Origin: Olsenella sp. An285
GTDB lineage: Bacteria > Actinomycetota > Coriobacteriia > Coriobacteriales > Atopobiaceae
Direction of reading: 5' to 3'
DNA: 64,000 nt
Assembly (NCBI RefSeq): GCF_002159625.1
Contig: NZ_NFIZ01000001.1
Coordinates: forward strand, 186,001 to 250,000
A program made the translations under genes and the position numbers. The notes under the pieces are model-generated. The model was given only the letters and a program-made list of their open reading frames with translations, was not told the DNA's origin and searched no databases. Within the stretch, counting starts at the first letter, position 1, and each line of letters opens with the position of its first letter. This document shows, in pieces, positions 19,633-63,430 of the stretch.

Positions 19633-19635
19633 AGT

Positions 19636-19660
19636 TGACAAGGGGACAGTCCCTTTGTCA
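19636..19660. repeat. GGGACAGTCCC-type palindrome after rplT
   Basis: TGACAAGGGGAC-A-GTCCCTTTGTCA, one mismatch in 12-bp arms. It belongs to the same family as the palindromes at 22865, 54623 and 58082. Confidence 0.85.
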
Positions 19661-21666: not shown

Positions 21667-21761
21667 TCCCTCAGGATCGAAGATGCCCCAGCGCGAGAAG
21701 GGCCGGCCACAAGAGGGCCCGACACCGCAGGAAGCGGCGCCGGGCCAGCATCAAACATTTG

Positions 21762-21790
21762 TGTAAATTGGGGACTGTCCCCAATTTACA
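21762..21790. repeat. Perfect 29-nt palindrome downstream of ilvC
   Basis: TGTAAATTGGGGAC-T-GTCCCCAATTTACA; the arms are 14 bp and exact. Almost the same sequence recurs at 63402, just upstream of the RAYT gene at the right edge, which suggests that transposase family as its mobiliser. Confidence 0.9.
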
Positions 21791-22790: not shown

Positions 22791-22864
22791 GTGCTTTTCT
22801 CCTTAGTCTTGCCGTTCGTTGCTATGCTCAACCGCCGAGAAGGACGGCGGGTGGTGCCGGGAGA

Positions 22865-22893
22865 CTTGACAAAGGGACTGTCCCCCTGTCAAG
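22865..22893. repeat. GGGACTGTCCC palindrome between ilvN and ilvC
   Basis: CTTGACAAAGGGAC-T-GTCCCCCTGTCAAG, two mismatches in 14-bp arms. It lies three bases after the ilvN stop and could separate ilvC expression from the upstream genes. A CGAGAAGGAC motif copy is 25 bp away at 22835. Confidence 0.85.
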
Positions 22894-23381: not shown

Positions 23382-25255
23382 CACTCATCAACTCCTTCGT
23401 GGGAAGGGAGTGGGCGACCGGACTCGCCGAAGCCCTTCTCGGTCACGCGGACGCCGCCGAGGGTGACGTCGAGGGCGCCGATGATGTCATCGATCGGGGC
23501 GCCGGGAGCGACCATGGGGTAGACGGTCTGCGCGGCGGGAATCACGACGTCGAGGAGGTAGGGGCCGTCCGCGGCGAGCATGGCGTCGAGCGCGGCGTCG
23601 ACCTCTTCGGGGCGGGAGATGCGCGCCGCCTGCCAGCCGTAGGCGTCGGCGAGCTTGACGAAGTCGGGGTTGTCGGCGAGCTCGGTGAACGAGAAGCGGT
23701 CGTTGTAGAAGAGGTGCTGCCACTGGTGAACCATGCCAAGGGCGCGGTTGTCGATGATGAGCACCTTGACGTTGACGCCGTTGATCTTTGCGGTGGCCAT
23801 CTCCTGGCTGTTCATCTGGAAGGAGCCGTCGCCGGCGATGCAGACGACCTGCTCGTCCGGGCAGCCGATCTTGGCGCCGATGGCGGCGGGGAAGCCGAAG
23901 CCCATGGTGCCGAGGCCGCCGGAGGAGATGAAGGTGCGCGCGTGCTCGCGGTGGATGTTCTGGAGGGCCCACATCTGGTGCTGACCGACCTCGGTGGTGA
24001 CGATGGAGGCGTGCGGGTCGAGCTTGGCGGAGAGGGTCTCGAGAAGGACCTCGGGCGCGATCTTGTCGGGGTAGTCCGCGAAGTCGGAGGTGTAGAACGG
24101 CCAGCGCTCGCGCCACTCGAAGACCTCGTCGCGCCAGGCCTCCGCCACCGGCGTGGCGCCCATCTTCTCGAGGCGCTCGTTGACGGCGGCGAGGACCACC
24201 TTGACGTCGCCCACGATGGGCACGGCGGGGTTCACGATCTTGCCGATCTCGGCCGGGTCGATGTCGATGTGGATGATCTTGGCGTGCGGCGCGAACTCGG
24301 AGACCTTGCCGGTCACGCGGTCCGAGAAGCGCGCGCCGCAGGCGATGATGAGGTCGGACTCCGTGACGGCCATGTTGGCGTACTTGGAGCCGTGCATGCC
24401 CACGGGGCCGAGGTTGAGCGGGTTGGAGCAGGGGATGGCCGCCTTGCCCATGAGGGTGGTGACCACGGGGATCTGCATGCGCTCCGCGAGCTCCACGAGC
24501 TCGGGGCAGGCGTGGGAGGCGACGATGCCGCCGCCGGCCATGATGAGCGGGCGCTTGGCCTCGGAGATGAGCTGCGCGGCCTGCTTGACCTGCTTGGCGT
24601 TGCCCTTGTAGGTGGGGCGGTAGCTCGGGATGCTCACGGTGTCCGGGTAGTGGAAGACCATCTCGGAGCCGGAGAGGTCGCTCGGGATGTCGATGAGCAC
24701 GGGGCCCGGGCGGCCGGTGGAGGCGATGTAGAAGGCCTCGCGGAAGGTCCGCGTGAGGTCGTCGGTGGACTGGAGCAGGAAGCTGTGCTTCACGATGGGC
24801 ATGGTGATGCCAACGATGTCTGACTCCTGGAAGGCGTCCGTGCCGATGACGCCGCGCGTGACCTGGCCCGTGATGACCACGAGGGGCACCGAGTCCATGT
24901 AGGCGGTGGCGATGCCCGTGACGGTGTTGGTGGCGCCGGGGCCGGAGGTGACCAGCACCACGCCCACCTTGCCCGTGGCGCGCGCGTATCCGTCGGCCAT
25001 GTGGGTGGCGCCCTGCTCGTGGCGGGCGAGGACGTGGCGGATCTTCTTGGAGTCGTAGAGCGCGTCGTAGATCTTGATGGCCTGGCCGCCGGGGTAGCCG
25101 AAGATCGTGTCCACGCCCTCGGCCTCGAGGCTGGCGATGATCGCCTGCGCCCCGGTCATGGTCTTGCCCTCGTGCTCCGTCTTGCTGCCAGGCCCGAACG
25201 GGCGCCCCTCGATGGCGCGCTGCCGCCGGGCGATCTTCTCCTCGGTGGTGATCAT
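23381..25255 (-). CDS. ilvB: Acetolactate synthase catalytic subunit
   Basis: A thiamine-diphosphate enzyme that condenses pyruvate with pyruvate or 2-oxobutyrate. The 624-residue chain has the catalytic Glu in GYPGG...RHEQGA, the FAD/ThDP regions ([16 protein letters not shown]) and the ThDP motif [11 protein letters not shown]...[11 protein letters not shown] 25255 overlaps the ilvD stop (ATGA). The N-terminus is about 30 residues longer than usual; an internal ATG at 25161 (MTGAQAI) matches the typical family start, but the coupled ATG has the better context. Confidence 0.95.
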
Positions 25256-26916
25256 GAGAGGTACGCCCCCTTGTCTGCACTCGTGACCAGCTTTGCGTAG
25301 CGGGAGAGGACTCCCGTGGCGTACTTGGGCGCGGGCGGCTCCCACTGGGCGCGCCGCGCGGCGAGCTCGTCTGCGGGCACGCGCAGCTCGAGCGTGCCGG
25401 CCTGGATGTCGATGTCGATGACGTCGCCCTCGCGCACCAGCGCAATCGGGCCGCCGGCAGCCGCCTCAGGCGAGACGTGGCCGATGCACGGGCCCTTGGA
25501 GGCGCCGGAGAAGCGCCCGTCGGTGATGAGGGCCACCGAGCTCGCGAGCCCCATGCCGCAGATGGCGGAAGTGGGGGTGAGCATCTCGCGCATGCCGGGT
25601 CCGCCCGAGGGACCCTCGTAGCGGATGACCACGACGTCGCCCGGGTTTATCGCCCCGCCAAAGATGGCCTTGCAGGCCTCCTCCTCGGAGTCGAAGACGC
25701 GCGCGGGGCCGGAGTGCTGCCACATGCCCGGGTCCACGGCGCTCTTCTTGACCACGCCGCAGTCTGGCGCGAGGCTTCCGCGCATGACCTTGAGGCCGCC
25801 GTCGGGGGAGTAGGCGTTGTCCACGCTGCGCACGACCTCGCCGTCAACGGGCGGGCACTGCGCAACCCACTCCGCCATGGTGCCGTGGCAGGTGAGCGCG
25901 CTCATGTCGAGGTGCCCCGTGCGGCCGAGCTCGCCGAGAATGGCGGAGACGCCGCCCACGTCGTTGAGGTCCTGGATGTGGAGCGGGCCGGCCGGCGCGA
26001 TGCGCACGATGTTGGGGGTCTCGGCGCTGGCGCGGTCCCAGTCATCCATGGTGACGGGGCAGCCGGCGGCCTGCGCGATGGCCGTGAGATGGAGCATCGT
26101 GTTGGTGGAACCGCCGAAGGCCATGTCGAGCACCATGCCGTTGTGGATGGCGGCCGGGGTGAGGATCTGGCGCGCGGTGAGGTTCTTCTCGACCAGCTCC
26201 ATGACCTTCATGCCCGCCTGCTTGGCAAGGCGGATGCGCTCGGAGTAGACGGCAGGCACGGTGCCGTTGCCGGGAAGGGCGATGCCCAGGGCCTCCGCGA
26301 GGCAGCAGATGGAGTTGGCGGTGAACATGCCGGAGCAGCTGCCGCAGGTGGGGCAGGCGGTGCCCTCGAGCCAGTGGCACTCCTCCTCGGTCATGGTGCC
26401 GGCGGTGACCTGGCCCACGGCGTCGAAGAGGGAGTTGAGGTCGGTCTGGGACCCGTCGCGCCCGCGGCCGGCGAGCATGGGGCCGCCGGAGACGAGCACG
26501 GTGGGGATGTCCAGGCGCGCCGCGGCGATGAGCATGCCGGGGACGATCTTGTCGCAGCTGGGGATAAGAACCATCGCGTCGAACTGGTGACCCTGCACCG
26601 CGCACTCCACGGAGTCCGCGATGACCTCGCGGCTGGTGAGGCTGTAGTGCATGCCCTCGTGGTTCATGGCGATGCCGTCGCACACGCCGATGGTGTTCAC
26701 TTGGAGCGGCGTGCCGCCCGCCATGCGAACGCCCGCCTTGACGGCGTCGGCGATCTGCTGGAGGTGAAGGTGCCCGGGGATGACCTCGTTCTGGGCGGAA
26801 ATCACGGCCACGAGCGGCCGGTCGAGCTCCTCGTCGGTGAGGCCGTCGGCCTTGAGCAGGCTGCGGTGCGGCGCTCGCGCCAGGCCTCGCTTTATTGCGT
26901 CGCTTCTCAGTTCCAC
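25252..26916 (-). CDS. ilvD: Dihydroxy-acid dehydratase
   Basis: An iron-sulfur dehydratase, third step of branched-chain amino acid synthesis, 554 residues. Cluster and active-site motifs are visible: [27 protein letters not shown] and [20 protein letters not shown]. The start is GTG 26916 with GAGGGGGAAC just upstream; no ATG is available nearby. It is first in the minus-strand ilvDBNC operon. Confidence 0.96.
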
Positions 26917-27232
26917 GTTCCCCCTCGCTTTCCTCGTCGTTGTGAGAAATGCGAGGCCCAGAACCTCGAAGCCGTTACGGTGGCCGCCGGCGCGCGGTAC
27001 TTCTCGGCGCGTTTGCGGGGTTGTCCCGTCGCACGGCGCGGAGGTTCTCGCGAGCTGCTCGAGGGAGTGTTCGGTGCCGTTCGCCGCGGGTTCTCAGTCT
27101 GCCCGCTCCCTGTGGGACGAATGCGGCCCCTACTGGCCCTGTCATCGCATTTGCTCAGTGGTCCGTATCCTACGCGGCCCGTGTTTCCGGGGCGTAATCG
27201 CCCGCGAACGGTAGTGTTTCCCACCCAAGCGG
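26917..27232 (-). other. Leader region of the ilv operon, no recognised element
   Basis: This gap should hold the ilvD promoter. Read on the minus strand I find no T-box signature, no run of Leu/Val/Ile codons in a leader ORF and no hairpin with a T-run. Small hairpins exist (CGAGG-TTCTGG-GCCTCG near the gene), and one CTTCTCG motif copy lies at 27000. How this operon is regulated is not visible. Confidence 0.4.
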
Positions 27233-27265
27233 TGTCCCAAATAGGGACAGGATGCAATTGGGACA
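27233..27265. repeat. REP-like palindrome 5' of the RAYT pseudogene
   Basis: The outer arms TGTCCCAA / TTGGGACA enclose GGGACAGGATGCAA. The inner part matches the hairpin on the other side of the pseudogene (28098 onward, GGGACAGGACGAAA) at most positions. Confidence 0.8.
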
Positions 27266-27329
27266 TTCTGCGGCGACCCGCCCGCCCTTCAGGTGGGTAT
27301 CAGAGAAGGACCGGGGGAAGGAGGCGGAA

Positions 27330-28068
27330 ATGCGCGCCGCAAGGAGGGTTTCAGAGTCAGGCTACTATCACGTTATCCTGCGCGGGGACGGCAAGCGCAG
27401 AATCTTTGAAGACGATGATGACCGTAGGGAGTTTCTTAAGCTGCTTTCCGAGCAGGTGGTCAATCGAGGGGTGGACATAATTGCCTGGTGCTTGATGGAT
27501 AACCACGTCCACCTCGTCGTACAAGATTCCAGCAGTTGTTTAAGCATAGCCATAGGGTCTCTGGCCATGCGCTACGCCAGTGCTTCAATATGCGGACCGG
27601 GCATGTTGGGCATGTCTTCCAAGAGAGGTTTAAGAGCTCTCCCATCGAGAGCGACGCGTACCTTCTTGAGGCTTCCGCTACGTTCACAATAACCCTGAGA
27701 AGAGCGGTATCTGTCGTGCTGAGGAGTACCCATGGAGCAGCTACTCGGAATACGTCACGAGTTCATGGATTACCGATACGGAAACTGTTCTTGACATGCT
27801 TGGTGGGGTGGAAGGCTTCAAAGAGTTCTGCGCCGCCGTGCCCGCGTTAAGCTATAGGTTCTCCGGTCGTGTGAGGATTGCCGACGACGAGATGGGGGAA
27901 ATGGCGAGGTCTGTGCTCGGAGACGTCTCCGTTTACGATGTGAAGGCTCTTCCGGTGGAGGAGAGAAACGAGAGGCTTCGCGCTCTTCGCGAGTGCGGGC
28001 TCTCCGTTCGGCAAGTCGAACGGCTTACGGGAATTGGGGCCAAGACCATTACGCGGGCGACGACGTAG
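27330..28068 (+). pseudogene. REP-associated tyrosine transposase (RAYT), two frameshifts
   Basis: A Y1/HUH-family transposase related to IS200. Frame 1 opens at ATG 27330 behind GGAGG and gives ESGYYHVILRG and the metal motif NHVHLV. Near 27580 the reading continues one base off (CFNMRTGHVGHVFQERF), and near 27674 it shifts again (YVHNNPEKSGICRAEEYPW, which includes the catalytic-Tyr region). The rest reads through to the C-terminal HTH-like end (LSVRQVERLTGIGAKTI) at 28068. Each break looks like loss of a single base. The gene is therefore broken as sequenced, unless these are sequencing errors. It has its own palindromes on both sides. Confidence 0.85.
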
Positions 28069-28079
28069 CGACTCATATT

Positions 28080-28169
28080 GGCGCGGCGACCCAAGTGGGG
28101 ACAGGACGAAACTGGGACACCCGCTCGGGTGTCCCAGTTTCGTCCTGTCCCCACTTGGGTCGCCGCGCC
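28080..28169 (+). repeat. Perfect 43-bp hairpin with GCTC loop 3' of the RAYT pseudogene
   Basis: The arms 28080-28122 and 28127-28169 are exact reverse complements. It begins 12 bases after the pseudogene stop and ends seven bases before the ilvA stop. It carries CAAGTGGGGACAGGACGAAA, related to the palindrome at 27233. Confidence 0.92.
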
Positions 28170-28175
28170 CCCGTC

Positions 28176-29396
28176 TCACAGAGAGGTCTGGACGAGGGTG
28201 GGGGAGAAGCCCGCGGAGCTGAGGGCGTCCACGATCTGGTCCTTGTGGTCGGTGCCAAAGGCCTCGATCGTCACGCGCAGCTCGACGGCGGCGTTGCGGT
28301 TGGTCGAGACGAACTGGTTGTGCTCGAGCTTGATGACGTTGCCGTTCTGCTCTGCGATGACCTGCGCCACGCGCACCAGCATGCCCGGGCGGTCGGGCAG
28401 CAGAACGCTCACGGTGAAGATGCGGTCGCGCATGATGAGGCCGTGCTGGACGACCGAGCTCATCGTGATGACGTCCATGTTGCCGCCGGAGAGGATGGAG
28501 ACCACGCGCTTGTTCTCGGCGGGCAGGTGCTTGAGCGCCGCCACGGTGAGAAGGCCCGAGTTCTCCACGATCATCTTGTGGTTCTCCACCATGTCGAGGA
28601 ACGCCACCACGAGCTCGTCGTCCGGGACGGTCATGACGTCGTCAAGGTTGTCGCGCAGGTAGGGGAATACCTGGTCGCCCACCTCCAGGACGGCCGTGCC
28701 GTCCGCGATGGTGTTGGCGGAGGGCAGGCGCACCGGGTGACCGGCCTCGAGCGCGGCCGTGAGCGAGGGAGCCCCGGCCGGTTCCACGCCCACCACGCGG
28801 ATCTTGGGGTTGTGGAGCTTGGCGAAGGTCGCCACCCCGCACGCCAGGCCTCCGCCGCCGACGGGCACGAGAATGGTGTCCACGAGCGGCAGCTCCTGCA
28901 CGATCTCCATGGCGATGGTCCCCTGGCCGGTGGACACGGTCGGGTCGTTGAACGGGTGGATGAAGGTGAGGCCCTCGCGCTCCGCCAGCTCGAGGGCGTA
29001 GTCGCAGGCCTCGTCGTAGACGTCGCCGTGGAGGACGACCTCGGCGCCGTAGCCCTTGGTGCGCTCGACCTTGATGAGCGGCGTCGTCGTGGGCATGACC
29101 ACGACGGAGCGCGCGCCGGCGCGCGAGGCGGCGTAGGCCACGCCCTGCGCGTGGTTGCCCGCGCTCGCGGTGATGAGGCCGCGGGAGAGCTCCTCGGGGG
29201 AGAGGGTGGAAATCTTGTAGTAGGCGCCGCGCACCTTGTAGGCGCCGGTGCGCTGCATGTTCTCGGGCTTGAGCCACACGCGGTTGCCGCACTGGGCGGA
29301 GAACGAAGGGCTCTCCACGAGCTTGGTCTCCTGCGTGACCTCCCGGACCTTCTCGGAGGCCTCCTCAAAGGCCTCGAGCGTGAGCATCTCTGCCAT
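28176..29396 (-). CDS. ilvA: Threonine ammonia-lyase (threonine deaminase)
   Basis: A PLP enzyme converting threonine to 2-oxobutyrate, which feeds isoleucine synthesis by ilvBN/C/D nearby. It has 406 residues, with the PLP lysine in GAYKVRGA near residue 53, the phosphate-binding loop GGGGLACG and SGGNMD. A single C-terminal ACT-like domain (about 330-406, FTVSVLLPDRPGML) makes this the shorter form rather than the 500-residue biosynthetic form with a double regulatory domain. ATG 29396 is preceded by an AGGGGG-type site. Confidence 0.93.
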   Translation of the reverse strand: MAEMLTLEAFEEASEKVREVTQETKLVESPSFSAQCGNRVWLKPENMQRTGAYKVRGAYYKISTLSPEELSRGLITASAGNHAQGVAYAASRAGARSVVVMPTTTPLIKVERTKGYGAEVVLHGDVYDEACDYALELAEREGLTFIHPFNDPTVSTGQGTIAMEIVQELPLVDTILVPVGGGGLACGVATFAKLHNPKIRVVGVEPAGAPSLTAALEAGHPVRLPSANTIADGTAVLEVGDQVFPYLRDNLDDVMTVPDDELVVAFLDMVENHKMIVENSGLLTVAALKHLPAENKRVVSILSGGNMDVITMSSVVQHGLIMRDRIFTVSVLLPDRPGMLVRVAQVIAEQNGNVIKLEHNQFVSTNRNAAVELRVTIEAFGTDHKDQIVDALSSAGFSPTLVQTSL

Positions 29397-30340: not shown

Positions 30341-30408
30341 TGCACGAAAGGGGACGTGCCTGAAACGTGCAAATAATTGCACGTTTCAGGCACGTCCCCT
30401 TTCGTGCA
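30341..30408 (+). repeat. Perfect 32-bp hairpin with ATAA loop
   Basis: The arms 30341-30372 and 30377-30408 are exact reverse complements (TGCACGAAAGGGGACGTGCC and onward). It lies just after the ABC ATPase stop and before the minus-strand tRNA-Ala terminator, the same design as the hairpins at 5809 and 28080. Confidence 0.92.
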
Positions 30409-53289: not shown

Positions 53290-54621
53290 ATGATCAAGAT
53301 CGCAAAGTTCGGCGGGTCGTCCGTCGCCTCCGCCGAGCAGTTCCGCAAGGTCAAGGAGATCGTCGAAGCGGATTCCGACCGCCGCTTCGTGGTGGTCTCC
53401 GCTGCCGGAAAGCGCTTCGACGGGGACAACAAGATCACCGACCTCCTGCTCCTCGTGAACGCGCACGTGCAGTACCACGTCGACTGCACGGGCCTTCTGG
53501 CCGACATCGAGCAGCGCTTCCTCGACATCGCCTCCGAGCTCGGGCTCAAGTGGCCTGTGCACGAGAAGTTCGAGATCTTCGCCAAGAACATCAAGAAGCA
53601 CTCGCCCGAGTACATCGTCGCGCGCGGCGAGTGGTTCACCGCCCACCTCATGGCCGAGTACCTGGGCATGCCGTTCGTCGACGCGGCGGACGTCATGGTC
53701 TTCCATCACAACGGCGAGGTTGACATGGAGCGCACGGCCTCGCGCCTCAAGGACGTGATGGTGCGCCAGGGCTCCTTCGTGCTGCCCGGCTTCTACGGAG
53801 CCACGGTTGACGGTCAGATCAAGCTCTTCCAGCGCGGCGGCGGCGACATCACGGGCGCCATCCTCGCCCGGTGCATCGACGCCGGCCTCTACGAGAACTG
53901 GACGGACGTCTCCGGCTTCCTCTCCGCCGACCCGCGCATCGTCGACCACCCGCGCTCCATCCGCCGCATCACCTTCGACGAGATGCGCGAGCTCTCCTAC
54001 ATGGGCGCCTCGGTCCTGCAGGAGGAGGCAATCTTCCCCGTGCGCGAGGTCAACATCCCCATCCAGATCAAGAACACCAACCGTCCCCAGGACGAGGGCA
54101 CCATCATCCGCGAGAAGGCGCGCATCGGCGAGGACGAGCACCTCATAACCGGCATCGCCGGCAAGAAGGACTTCATCTCCGTGCACGTCAAGAAGGCCCA
54201 CATGTCGGGCGAGGTGGGCTTCGTGCGCCGCGCGCTCTCCGTCTTCGAGCGGTACGGGATCTCCGTGGAGCACATCCCCACGGGCGTCGACTCGTTCTCC
54301 GTGGTGGTCAACGGCGCCGACGTGCGCGACTCGATCTACTCCATCGTGACCGACATCCGCCGCGAGCTCGAGCCGGACGACATCACCATGGTGGACAAGC
54401 TCGCCCTGCTCTCCGTGGTCGGCCGCAACATGTCCAAGCGCAGCGGCACCTCCGGCAAGATCTTCGGGGCGCTGGGCGAGGCGGGCATCAACATCCGCAT
54501 GATCACGCAGAGCTCCCAGGAGATCTCGATCATCATGGGCGTCAACAACGACGACTTCGAGCGCGCCGTCCAGGTGATCTACGACCGCTTCGTCCGCGAC
54601 GAGATGGTCACCGCCAGCTAA
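53290..54621 (+). CDS. lysC: Aspartate kinase
   Basis: First step of the aspartate pathway (Lys, Thr, Met), 443 residues. Kinase motifs: KIAKFGGSSVAS at the N-terminus, ARGEWFTA near residue 117, RGGGDITGA near 182, TDVSGFLSADPR near 200. Two ACT-type regulatory units fill the C-terminus (about 290-440, including VVGRNM and GINIRMITQSSQEISIIMG). It is flanked by palindromes on both sides, so it may be transcribed apart from hom and asd. Confidence 0.94.
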   Translation: MIKIAKFGGSSVASAEQFRKVKEIVEADSDRRFVVVSAAGKRFDGDNKITDLLLLVNAHVQYHVDCTGLLADIEQRFLDIASELGLKWPVHEKFEIFAKNIKKHSPEYIVARGEWFTAHLMAEYLGMPFVDAADVMVFHHNGEVDMERTASRLKDVMVRQGSFVLPGFYGATVDGQIKLFQRGGGDITGAILARCIDAGLYENWTDVSGFLSADPRIVDHPRSIRRITFDEMRELSYMGASVLQEEAIFPVREVNIPIQIKNTNRPQDEGTIIREKARIGEDEHLITGIAGKKDFISVHVKKAHMSGEVGFVRRALSVFERYGISVEHIPTGVDSFSVVVNGADVRDSIYSIVTDIRRELEPDDITMVDKLALLSVVGRNMSKRSGTSGKIFGALGEAGINIRMITQSSQEISIIMGVNNDDFERAVQVIYDRFVRDEMVTAS

Positions 54622-54622
54622 C

Positions 54623-54649
54623 TTGACAGGGGGACAGTCCCTTTGTCAA
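54623..54649. repeat. GGGACAGTCCC palindrome between lysC and asd
   Basis: TTGACAGGGGGAC-A-GTCCCTTTGTCAA; 13-bp arms with two mismatches, one base after the lysC stop. Confidence 0.85.
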
Positions 54650-58079: not shown

Positions 58080-58081
58080 TA

Positions 58082-58108
58082 TGACAAAGGGGACAGGGTA
58101 GTTTGTCA
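58082..58108 (+). repeat. TGACAAAGGGGACAGGG-type repeat after fic
   Basis: TGACAAA / TTTGTCA arms enclose GGGGACAGGGTAG. It is an incomplete member of the palindrome family, and the same AGGGTxGTTTGTCAGGT order appears in the hairpin at 5809. Confidence 0.75.
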
Positions 58109-63399: not shown

Positions 63400-63401
63400 T
63401 C

Positions 63402-63430
63402 TGTAAATTGGGGACAGTCCCCAATTAGCA
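63402..63430. repeat. GGGACAGTCCC palindrome between ptsI and the second RAYT gene
   Basis: TGTAAATTGGGGAC-A-GTCCCCAATT, then the palindrome breaks. It is nearly identical to the copy at 21762, which has T at the centre. Confidence 0.88.

Follow-up and report, generated by a model that had tools for sequence, protein, structure and literature searches.

What kind of system is a broken transposase gene that has a palindrome on either side, and how would its repeats be maintained? The locus raising this question lies in a window of 64 kb (G000:C1:186001-250000, the whole stretch of DNA that was analyzed) from a genome, G000, of 2.41 Mb in 33 contigs. Between two minus-strand genes that we take to be ilvA (threonine dehydratase, 28176-29396) and ilvD (dihydroxyacid dehydratase, 25252-26916), both named from the sequence, there is one lone hairpin repeat (27229-27265), followed by the broken gene of a Y1 transposase (27330-28068) and a perfect inverted pair (28080-28169). 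An earlier note on this DNA described a RAYT pseudogene flanked by palindromes of its own kind, a layout that was confirmed at this locus, and labeled the whole a REPtron, which was not.

The two flanking elements differ in kind. The upstream repeat is present in single copy on the plus strand, with its core, GGGACAGGATGCAATTGGGACA, at 27244-27265 and an 8-bp hairpin stem (TGTCCCAA/TTGGGACA), and it folds as a lone, weaker hairpin (z -2.2). Downstream of the gene lies a perfect inverted repeat of 44+44 bp, which has its arms at 28080-28123 and 28126-28169 and a predicted fold of -65 kcal/mol (z -19); each arm contains the core GGGACAGGACGAAACTGGGACA (28098-28119 on the plus strand, 28130-28151 on the minus strand). 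The proposal of a palindrome on each side was therefore right as to presence but not as to likeness of form, and the related core proposed for the two was indeed found in both. At up to three mismatches the core matched three times in the window and never in 100 dinucleotide shuffles, and the flanking-repeat score at the locus was 19.5 compared with a null maximum of 15.5. The layout is REPIN-like, with two repeat units that are inverted, hairpin-forming and dispersed; the resemblance is one of layout only, as the unit has no GTAG REP identity.

PF01797 matched the window gene with 35.7 and 35.9 bits (cut-off 23). Its plus-strand reading frame changes twice and falls into three pieces (27333-27578, 27584-27673 and 27676-28059), across which NHVH (first piece), HVFQ and YVHNNP (last piece) are all present, so that the HUH and Y motifs are intact. 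An alignment of 20 homologues gave the NHVH, FQ and Y[IV]HLNP motifs of subclass 2.1/RAYT group 1, with N commonly in place of L in the last motif across this homologue set. The predicted fold of an intact homologue was closest in the PDB to 4er8, a complex of TnpA-REP with a REP hairpin (TM 0.80 when scaled to the target length, 0.55 when scaled to the query), whereas a profile search of PDB sequences at E 0.001 gave no match. In a REPtron, the REPs carry a GT[AG]G foot on the 5' side of their hairpin. No GT[AG]G was found at the 5' foot of either hairpin here; a GTRG scan of both repeats and their edges located the motif within the downstream arms (at 28095 and the mirror position) and at one place next to the upstream repeat, where it is on the wrong side, and nowhere else. 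A classical REPtron, in which a RAYT is paired with GTAG-type REPs, would account for a Y1 protein flanked by inverted copies of a dispersed palindrome and for the REPIN-like pairs, but it is improbable given the missing foot and a protein whose motifs and length are those of subclass 2.1 and not of the REP-bearing subclasses, as these are set out in the available part of PMC6006769.

Because group 1/subclass 2.1 motifs occur together with repeats lacking a GT[AG]G foot, a TIRtron fits the sequence of the locus and a REPtron does not. The TIRYT was defined as a Y1 gene whose flanking inverted repeats have no relation to GTAG REPs (Di Nocera 2013, PMC3733652, available in part), and such repeats are present at the window locus. 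Further points in common with that account are moderately abundant repeat families with many dimers and, in part, a GGGGWSAS-like motif. GGGGWSAS is complete only in the downstream repeat (GGGGACAG; the upstream repeat reads AGGGACAG), and genus-wide it was found forward in 29 of 71 upstream repeats and in reverse in 5 of 71; it is a majority feature of TIRtrons and not a universal one. The system differs from the TIRtrons in the available text of PMC3733652 in belonging to an actinobacterial gut genus, in having five gene-repeat pairs coexisting in one genome, in sites that are common across a 31-genome set, in its evidence on turnover and in a similar hairpin layout at loci titled Bacillota. 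Searches of open-access literature, part of it available as full text, for RAYT with REPIN and Actinobacteria, and likewise for REP-associated tyrosine transposase with Collinsella, found none.

Across the genus, PF01797 was found at 76 places in 28 of 31 genomes. A profile built from four of the genome's own proteins matched 73 of these; the other three (L054, L055 and L056) were dropped as other Y1 types. A flanking repeat pair scored above all 40 mononucleotide shuffles at 71 of the 73 loci, and above all 20 dinucleotide shuffles at 71 of 73, compared with 2 of 29 when the same test was applied around ilvA as an ordinary gene. The two genus loci with no repeat pair are L077 and L118, the latter ending at a contig end. 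Among named relatives, which include Thermophilibacter and Olsenella and suggest a genus of Atopobiaceae, we took the best 80 of at least 575 confirmed; 22 were already in the genus set, and of the remaining 58, many of them titled Bacillota, 54 passed the flanking-pair test, some narrowly (such as L206, 13.0 vs 11.5, and L228, 14.0 vs 12.0), and four had no repeat pair. Quentin (2018; PMC6006769) reported, in the part available, no REP-like sequences for subclass 2.1, considered it probably equivalent to TIRYT and asked for further analysis; unlike that REP-less subclass, 71 of 73 genus genes here have a flanking pair. The proteins otherwise resemble the subclass 2.1 TnpA-Y1/RAYT group 1 of the same partly available source in their NHVH, FQ and Y[IV]HxNP motifs and in their length (approximately 248 aa vs a median of 238). 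C-terminal helices in the homologue model (213-225, 230-237 and 241-247) may correspond to the HTH extension of that group, with Pfam HTH matches below cut-off.

In many cases the repeat resembles a hairpin in which the stem varies and an inner stretch is constant. GGGAC[AG]G points toward the gene in 53 of 71 genus upstream repeats (reverse, 7 of 71) and in 30 of 54 loci outside the genus set (reverse, 4 of 54). When four single repeats were folded alone, z was -6.2, -2.2, -1.1 and +0.9; thus the fold is not a strong one in every repeat. Protein and repeat distances were correlated (Mantel r 0.755), but no region of the protein stood out as a predictor of the repeat stem (partial r 0.14-0.26). 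The TIRYT, as a Y1/HUH single-strand DNA transposase, most likely recognizes its own hairpin repeat, with a variable outer stem and a constant GGGACAG inside, and would mobilize it.

When the 73 loci were clustered by flanking DNA, with at least one matching flank as the link, they formed groups of 19, 19, 11, 10, 5, 3 and 2 plus four singletons. Links through both flanks numbered, in the same order, 153/171, 108/171, 36/46, 36/45, 3/9, 3/3 and 0/1; the small groups, with few such links, are weakly supported. TIRYT genes in the genus mostly keep fixed chromosomal sites. The site group of the window gene consists of nine loci with both flanks in common, the window locus included, and a tenth (L062, in G026) with one flank, where the gene sits at the opposite side of ilvA; the flanks are therefore related to transposase loci in relatives, a point on which the earlier reading depended. 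An active IS200/IS605-like insertion sequence that landed here would belong to the same protein superfamily and have repeats at both ends, but it is very unlikely considering the shared flanks at nine loci, the clades that keep their sites, the purifying selection described below and the five divergent genes, instead of several near-identical copies, in the genome itself.

The first group (19 rows) forms one starred clade in the tree and includes five repeat types (TTGACA, CGTGCA, GATTC, GGTC and GAAGGGAC); the window gene's site group has three repeat types and does not form a single clade. On the tree, the label for the ilv site needs three changes, at least two of them forced by starred branches, which means that the ilv-site transposase was replaced at least once or that the tree is imperfect there. 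Several repeat types within a site group recall the orthogroups of Nunvar et al. (2013; PMC3686654); the available part of that paper describes orthologous transposase genes with different flanking repeat classes (REP orthogroups/orthoswitch) and, as here, repeats that outlast their gene.

ilvA was found in 30 of 31 genus genomes. Among 30 loci read, 25 have the ilvD start no more than 1.5 kb away from where ilvA ends, L039 being a doubtful case among these. The ilvD upstream leader (26917-27228, minus strand) is strongly conserved across the genus and contains a GAGAAGTACCGCGCGCC stretch that looks T-box-like by eye; Rfam at the gathering threshold gave no match between 26500 and 28400, this stretch included. 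In the window, GAC comes after the TGA stop of ilvA, and we read it as what is left of a former TGAGACA repeat. In 14 of 30 loci (G000, G002, G003, G006, G010, G013, G014, G015, G017, G021, G024, G027, G028 and G030), ilvA stops with the TGA of a TGAGAC or TGAGGC, which in most of them opens a repeat, and the other 16 have TAG (11) or TAA (5); the repeat element seems to supply the ilvA stop codon. At six ilvA-ilvD sites (G002, G010, G013, G024, G027 and G028), one or two small genes (approximately 132 and 126 aa) replace the transposase, and these come after a TGAGAC/TGAGGC-type repeat at the ilvA end.

We then ask what happened to the gene. Both frame changes are single-nucleotide gaps when aligned with either of two homologues, L092 and L095, in agreement with the two frameshifts proposed earlier, and the search for intact homologues recovered open frames at the same ilvA-ilvD site in G021, G017, G029 and G018 (the last, L103, approximately 25 codons shorter than the others). 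The window gene and these four form one clade (100/98). dN/dS is about 0.135-0.245 among the open clade members, evidence in the sequences of purifying selection on the clade, and 0.128-0.173 between the broken copy and the open ones. The similarity of these ranges implies either a very recent break or a mistake in the assembly, although pS in comparisons with the broken copy is so high (0.52-0.67) that a late relaxation of constraint would stay invisible. There is no sign of long decay in the window gene. Frameshifts introduced by assembly, with a gene intact in the living strain, would explain the open-like dN/dS, the intact HUH and Y motifs and the size of each gap, just one base. We consider this possible but unlikely: there are two separate gaps within one gene, by reading they lie outside long homopolymers, and a second TIRYT of the same genome (L016) also contains a stop. 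The latter (G000:C32:70112) has an in-frame TGA, which makes two of the five TIRYTs of the genome broken; besides the window gene, those split by stops or frameshifts in the genus are L016, L060, L075, L099 and L122.

If the frameshifts are real, the activity of the window TIRYT would be lost, and it is plausible that the spread of repeats from this locus has stopped. The earlier note had allowed for rescue by another enzyme. The PF01797 search found no second transposase of the window gene's clade in the genome, and the other four TIRYTs carry different repeats; trans action thus has no support here, though it may still occur. Repeats of all four of those other families were also seen in the same 64-kb window, at approximately 19635-19660, 21760-21790, 22863-22893, 54620-54647, 58080-58106 and 63401-63426 and as a perfect 32-bp inverted pair at 30341-30408, and an open TIRYT of another site group (L017), with AATTGGGGACAGTCCCCAATT repeats, begins in the last stretch of the window (63496 to its end).

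The repeat family of the window locus, here called F1, is dispersed. With the core broadened to GGGACAGGANNNWWYTGGGACA and three mismatches allowed, the genome gave 18 matches compared with 1 for a reversed-pattern control, so the core does occur elsewhere; beyond the locus, the matches comprise seven inverted pairs and one weak single. Counts at two mismatches on both strands of the 31 genomes were 17 in G000, 19 in G017, 10 in G018, 26 in G021, 7 in G029 and 7 in G016, with 0-2 in the remaining 25 and 0 for the control in all. The first five are the genomes whose ilv-site transposase forms one clade with the window gene, whereas G016, with its seven matches, has no such gene. The clade of the gene and the family of the repeat occur together (Fisher p 3.5e-5, relatedness ignored), and this could arise from shared ancestry alone. 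For five of the seven dispersed pairs, the flanking DNA is orthologous to that around F1 pairs of G016, G017 or G018, which suggests that they are old insertions common to relatives.

Taken at about 80% probability, the main reading is a TIRtron that has been passed on vertically at a fixed site between ilvA and ilvD; its gene was recently broken or misassembled, and its dispersed pairs remain. The TIRYT would have seeded inverted pairs of its own repeat in a restricted set of intergenic sites; two frameshifts would then have broken it in this strain, recently or as an assembly error, and the pairs would stay.

Orthologous intergenic regions were read for the two remaining pairs (L004 and L267) and for one shared site (L008); out of 30 loci each, complete regions numbered 22 for L004, 7 for L267 and 26 for L008. 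At these sites, orthologous regions carry different TIR families in different species. At a score of at least 19, a cut-off chosen afterwards (highest shuffled score, 15.0), 25 of 51 regions matched the repeat library (12/21, 4/6 and 9/24), leaving out G000 and one unscored long region. The 25 belong to many repeat families, and by the author's tally the repeat of the same genome's own transposase was best or within 1 point in 16. Of the scored intergenic regions of the window, 8 of 33 matched as a base rate (with rough gene calls, some in wrong frames); the excess over it is only indicative because the three sites were picked for having a pair in the own genome. The AATT form of a second repeat family was considered as proof of common descent at one site and dropped, since it is found in 10 of 31 genomes.

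Among 37 F1 loci read there are 32 pairs, and 27 of these have identical 22-base arms, vs a mean of 3.27 differences between pairs. In 12 F1 ortholog rows from 10 sites, the 384 arm columns comprise 7 symmetric changes (6 unique), 2 one-sided changes and 375 unchanged columns; 29 rows of the second family, which share genomes and sites, give 812 columns with 23 symmetric, 6 one-sided and 783 unchanged. Of the 23, 19 are on the G016 side, and outside G016 there are 2 symmetric and 5 one-sided events; support from the second family for paired change is therefore weaker. Relative to their flanks, F1 spacers are inverted in 4 of 14 rows, the same in 3 and undecided in 7, and those of the second family are inverted in 4 of 29, the same in 17 and undecided in 8. 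Arm homogenization and spacer inversion are outcomes of template switching in the available text of PMC8604942, and the patterns suggest that the palindromes probably stay intact because replication switches template from one arm to the other, in which case the transposase would be unneeded for upkeep. A real alternative is that the arm and spacer pattern is an assembly artifact at palindromes, since graphs built from short reads can join or invert palindromes that are nearly perfect. It is also conceivable, though doubtful, that the palindromes are host terminators or mRNA stabilizers and that paired changes reflect compensatory selection instead of template switching; some pairs do sit at gene ends, flush with stop codons, and compensatory changes are common in REPINs (Bertels and Rainey 2011, PMC3116915, available in part), but spacer inversion is unexpected from selection on pairing and is an outcome of template switching in the part of PMC8604942 available. 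The pairs resemble those REPINs as inverted repeat doublets with compensatory changes and differ, as far as the same source text goes, in the repeat unit and the transposase group.

For the second family, 43 loci were read and 40 pairs kept, with L396, L408 and L424 dropped as unpaired. Of the 7 G016 pairs, 6 have the stem GGGTC, compared with none of 33 pairs from nine other genomes (Fisher 1.8e-6, relatedness ignored), and the G016 transposase L088 has GGTC/GGGTC flanking repeats. Four of the six GGGTC pairs have orthologs with GATTC-type stems in G021, G022, G023, G017 or G008; three of these sites have both flanks at >80 percent identity and one has one flank at 72-75 percent. L088 belongs to the same site group as the GATTC loci but lies outside the GATTC clade (99/95), and in a single-gene tree with no support read, the ilvA genes of G016 and G021 are sisters, which places G016 within the GATTC genomes. 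Tentatively, the allele at the G016 transposase locus may have been replaced and the dispersed pairs then rewritten in place. Palindrome sites would act as long-lived slots, the resident TIRYT would insert new palindromes and convert existing ones arm by arm to its own stem, and once the allele at a fixed site was swapped for one of other stem specificity, the dispersed pairs would follow.

Several observations stand against rewriting in place. One G016 pair (L394) kept GATTC, although its flanks agree with G021 at 99 percent identity and it may have arrived recently; at L392 and L393, 3 kb apart, the elements are identical, the orthologs of L392 matching at only one flank with 72-75 percent, and the two may represent one event; and G017 and G008 keep GATTC pairs although their own repeats in the first site group are different. 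Alternatively, the GGGTC pairs may have arisen by insertion at reused sites. It may be that families of hairpins displace or overwrite each other where they have sites in common. In the available part of Nunvar et al. (2013; PMC3686654), new variants spread and old copies decay; in G016, by contrast, old sites themselves bear the new stem, and no description of a stem switch in place was found in the open-access literature searched, some of it available in part.

How RAYT-like enzymes maintain their repeats, by new insertions, gene conversion or otherwise, is the wider issue to which these data speak; Higgins and colleagues reportedly brought up gene conversion in the title of their 1988 review. 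The data also extend the tie of group 1 proteins to hairpin repeats, which in the 2018 classification still awaited confirmation. With shared transposase sites, switched stems, broken or lost genes and orthologous palindromes open to comparison at single-base level, the genus offers a natural experiment, and it is this system-level pattern that merits follow-up.
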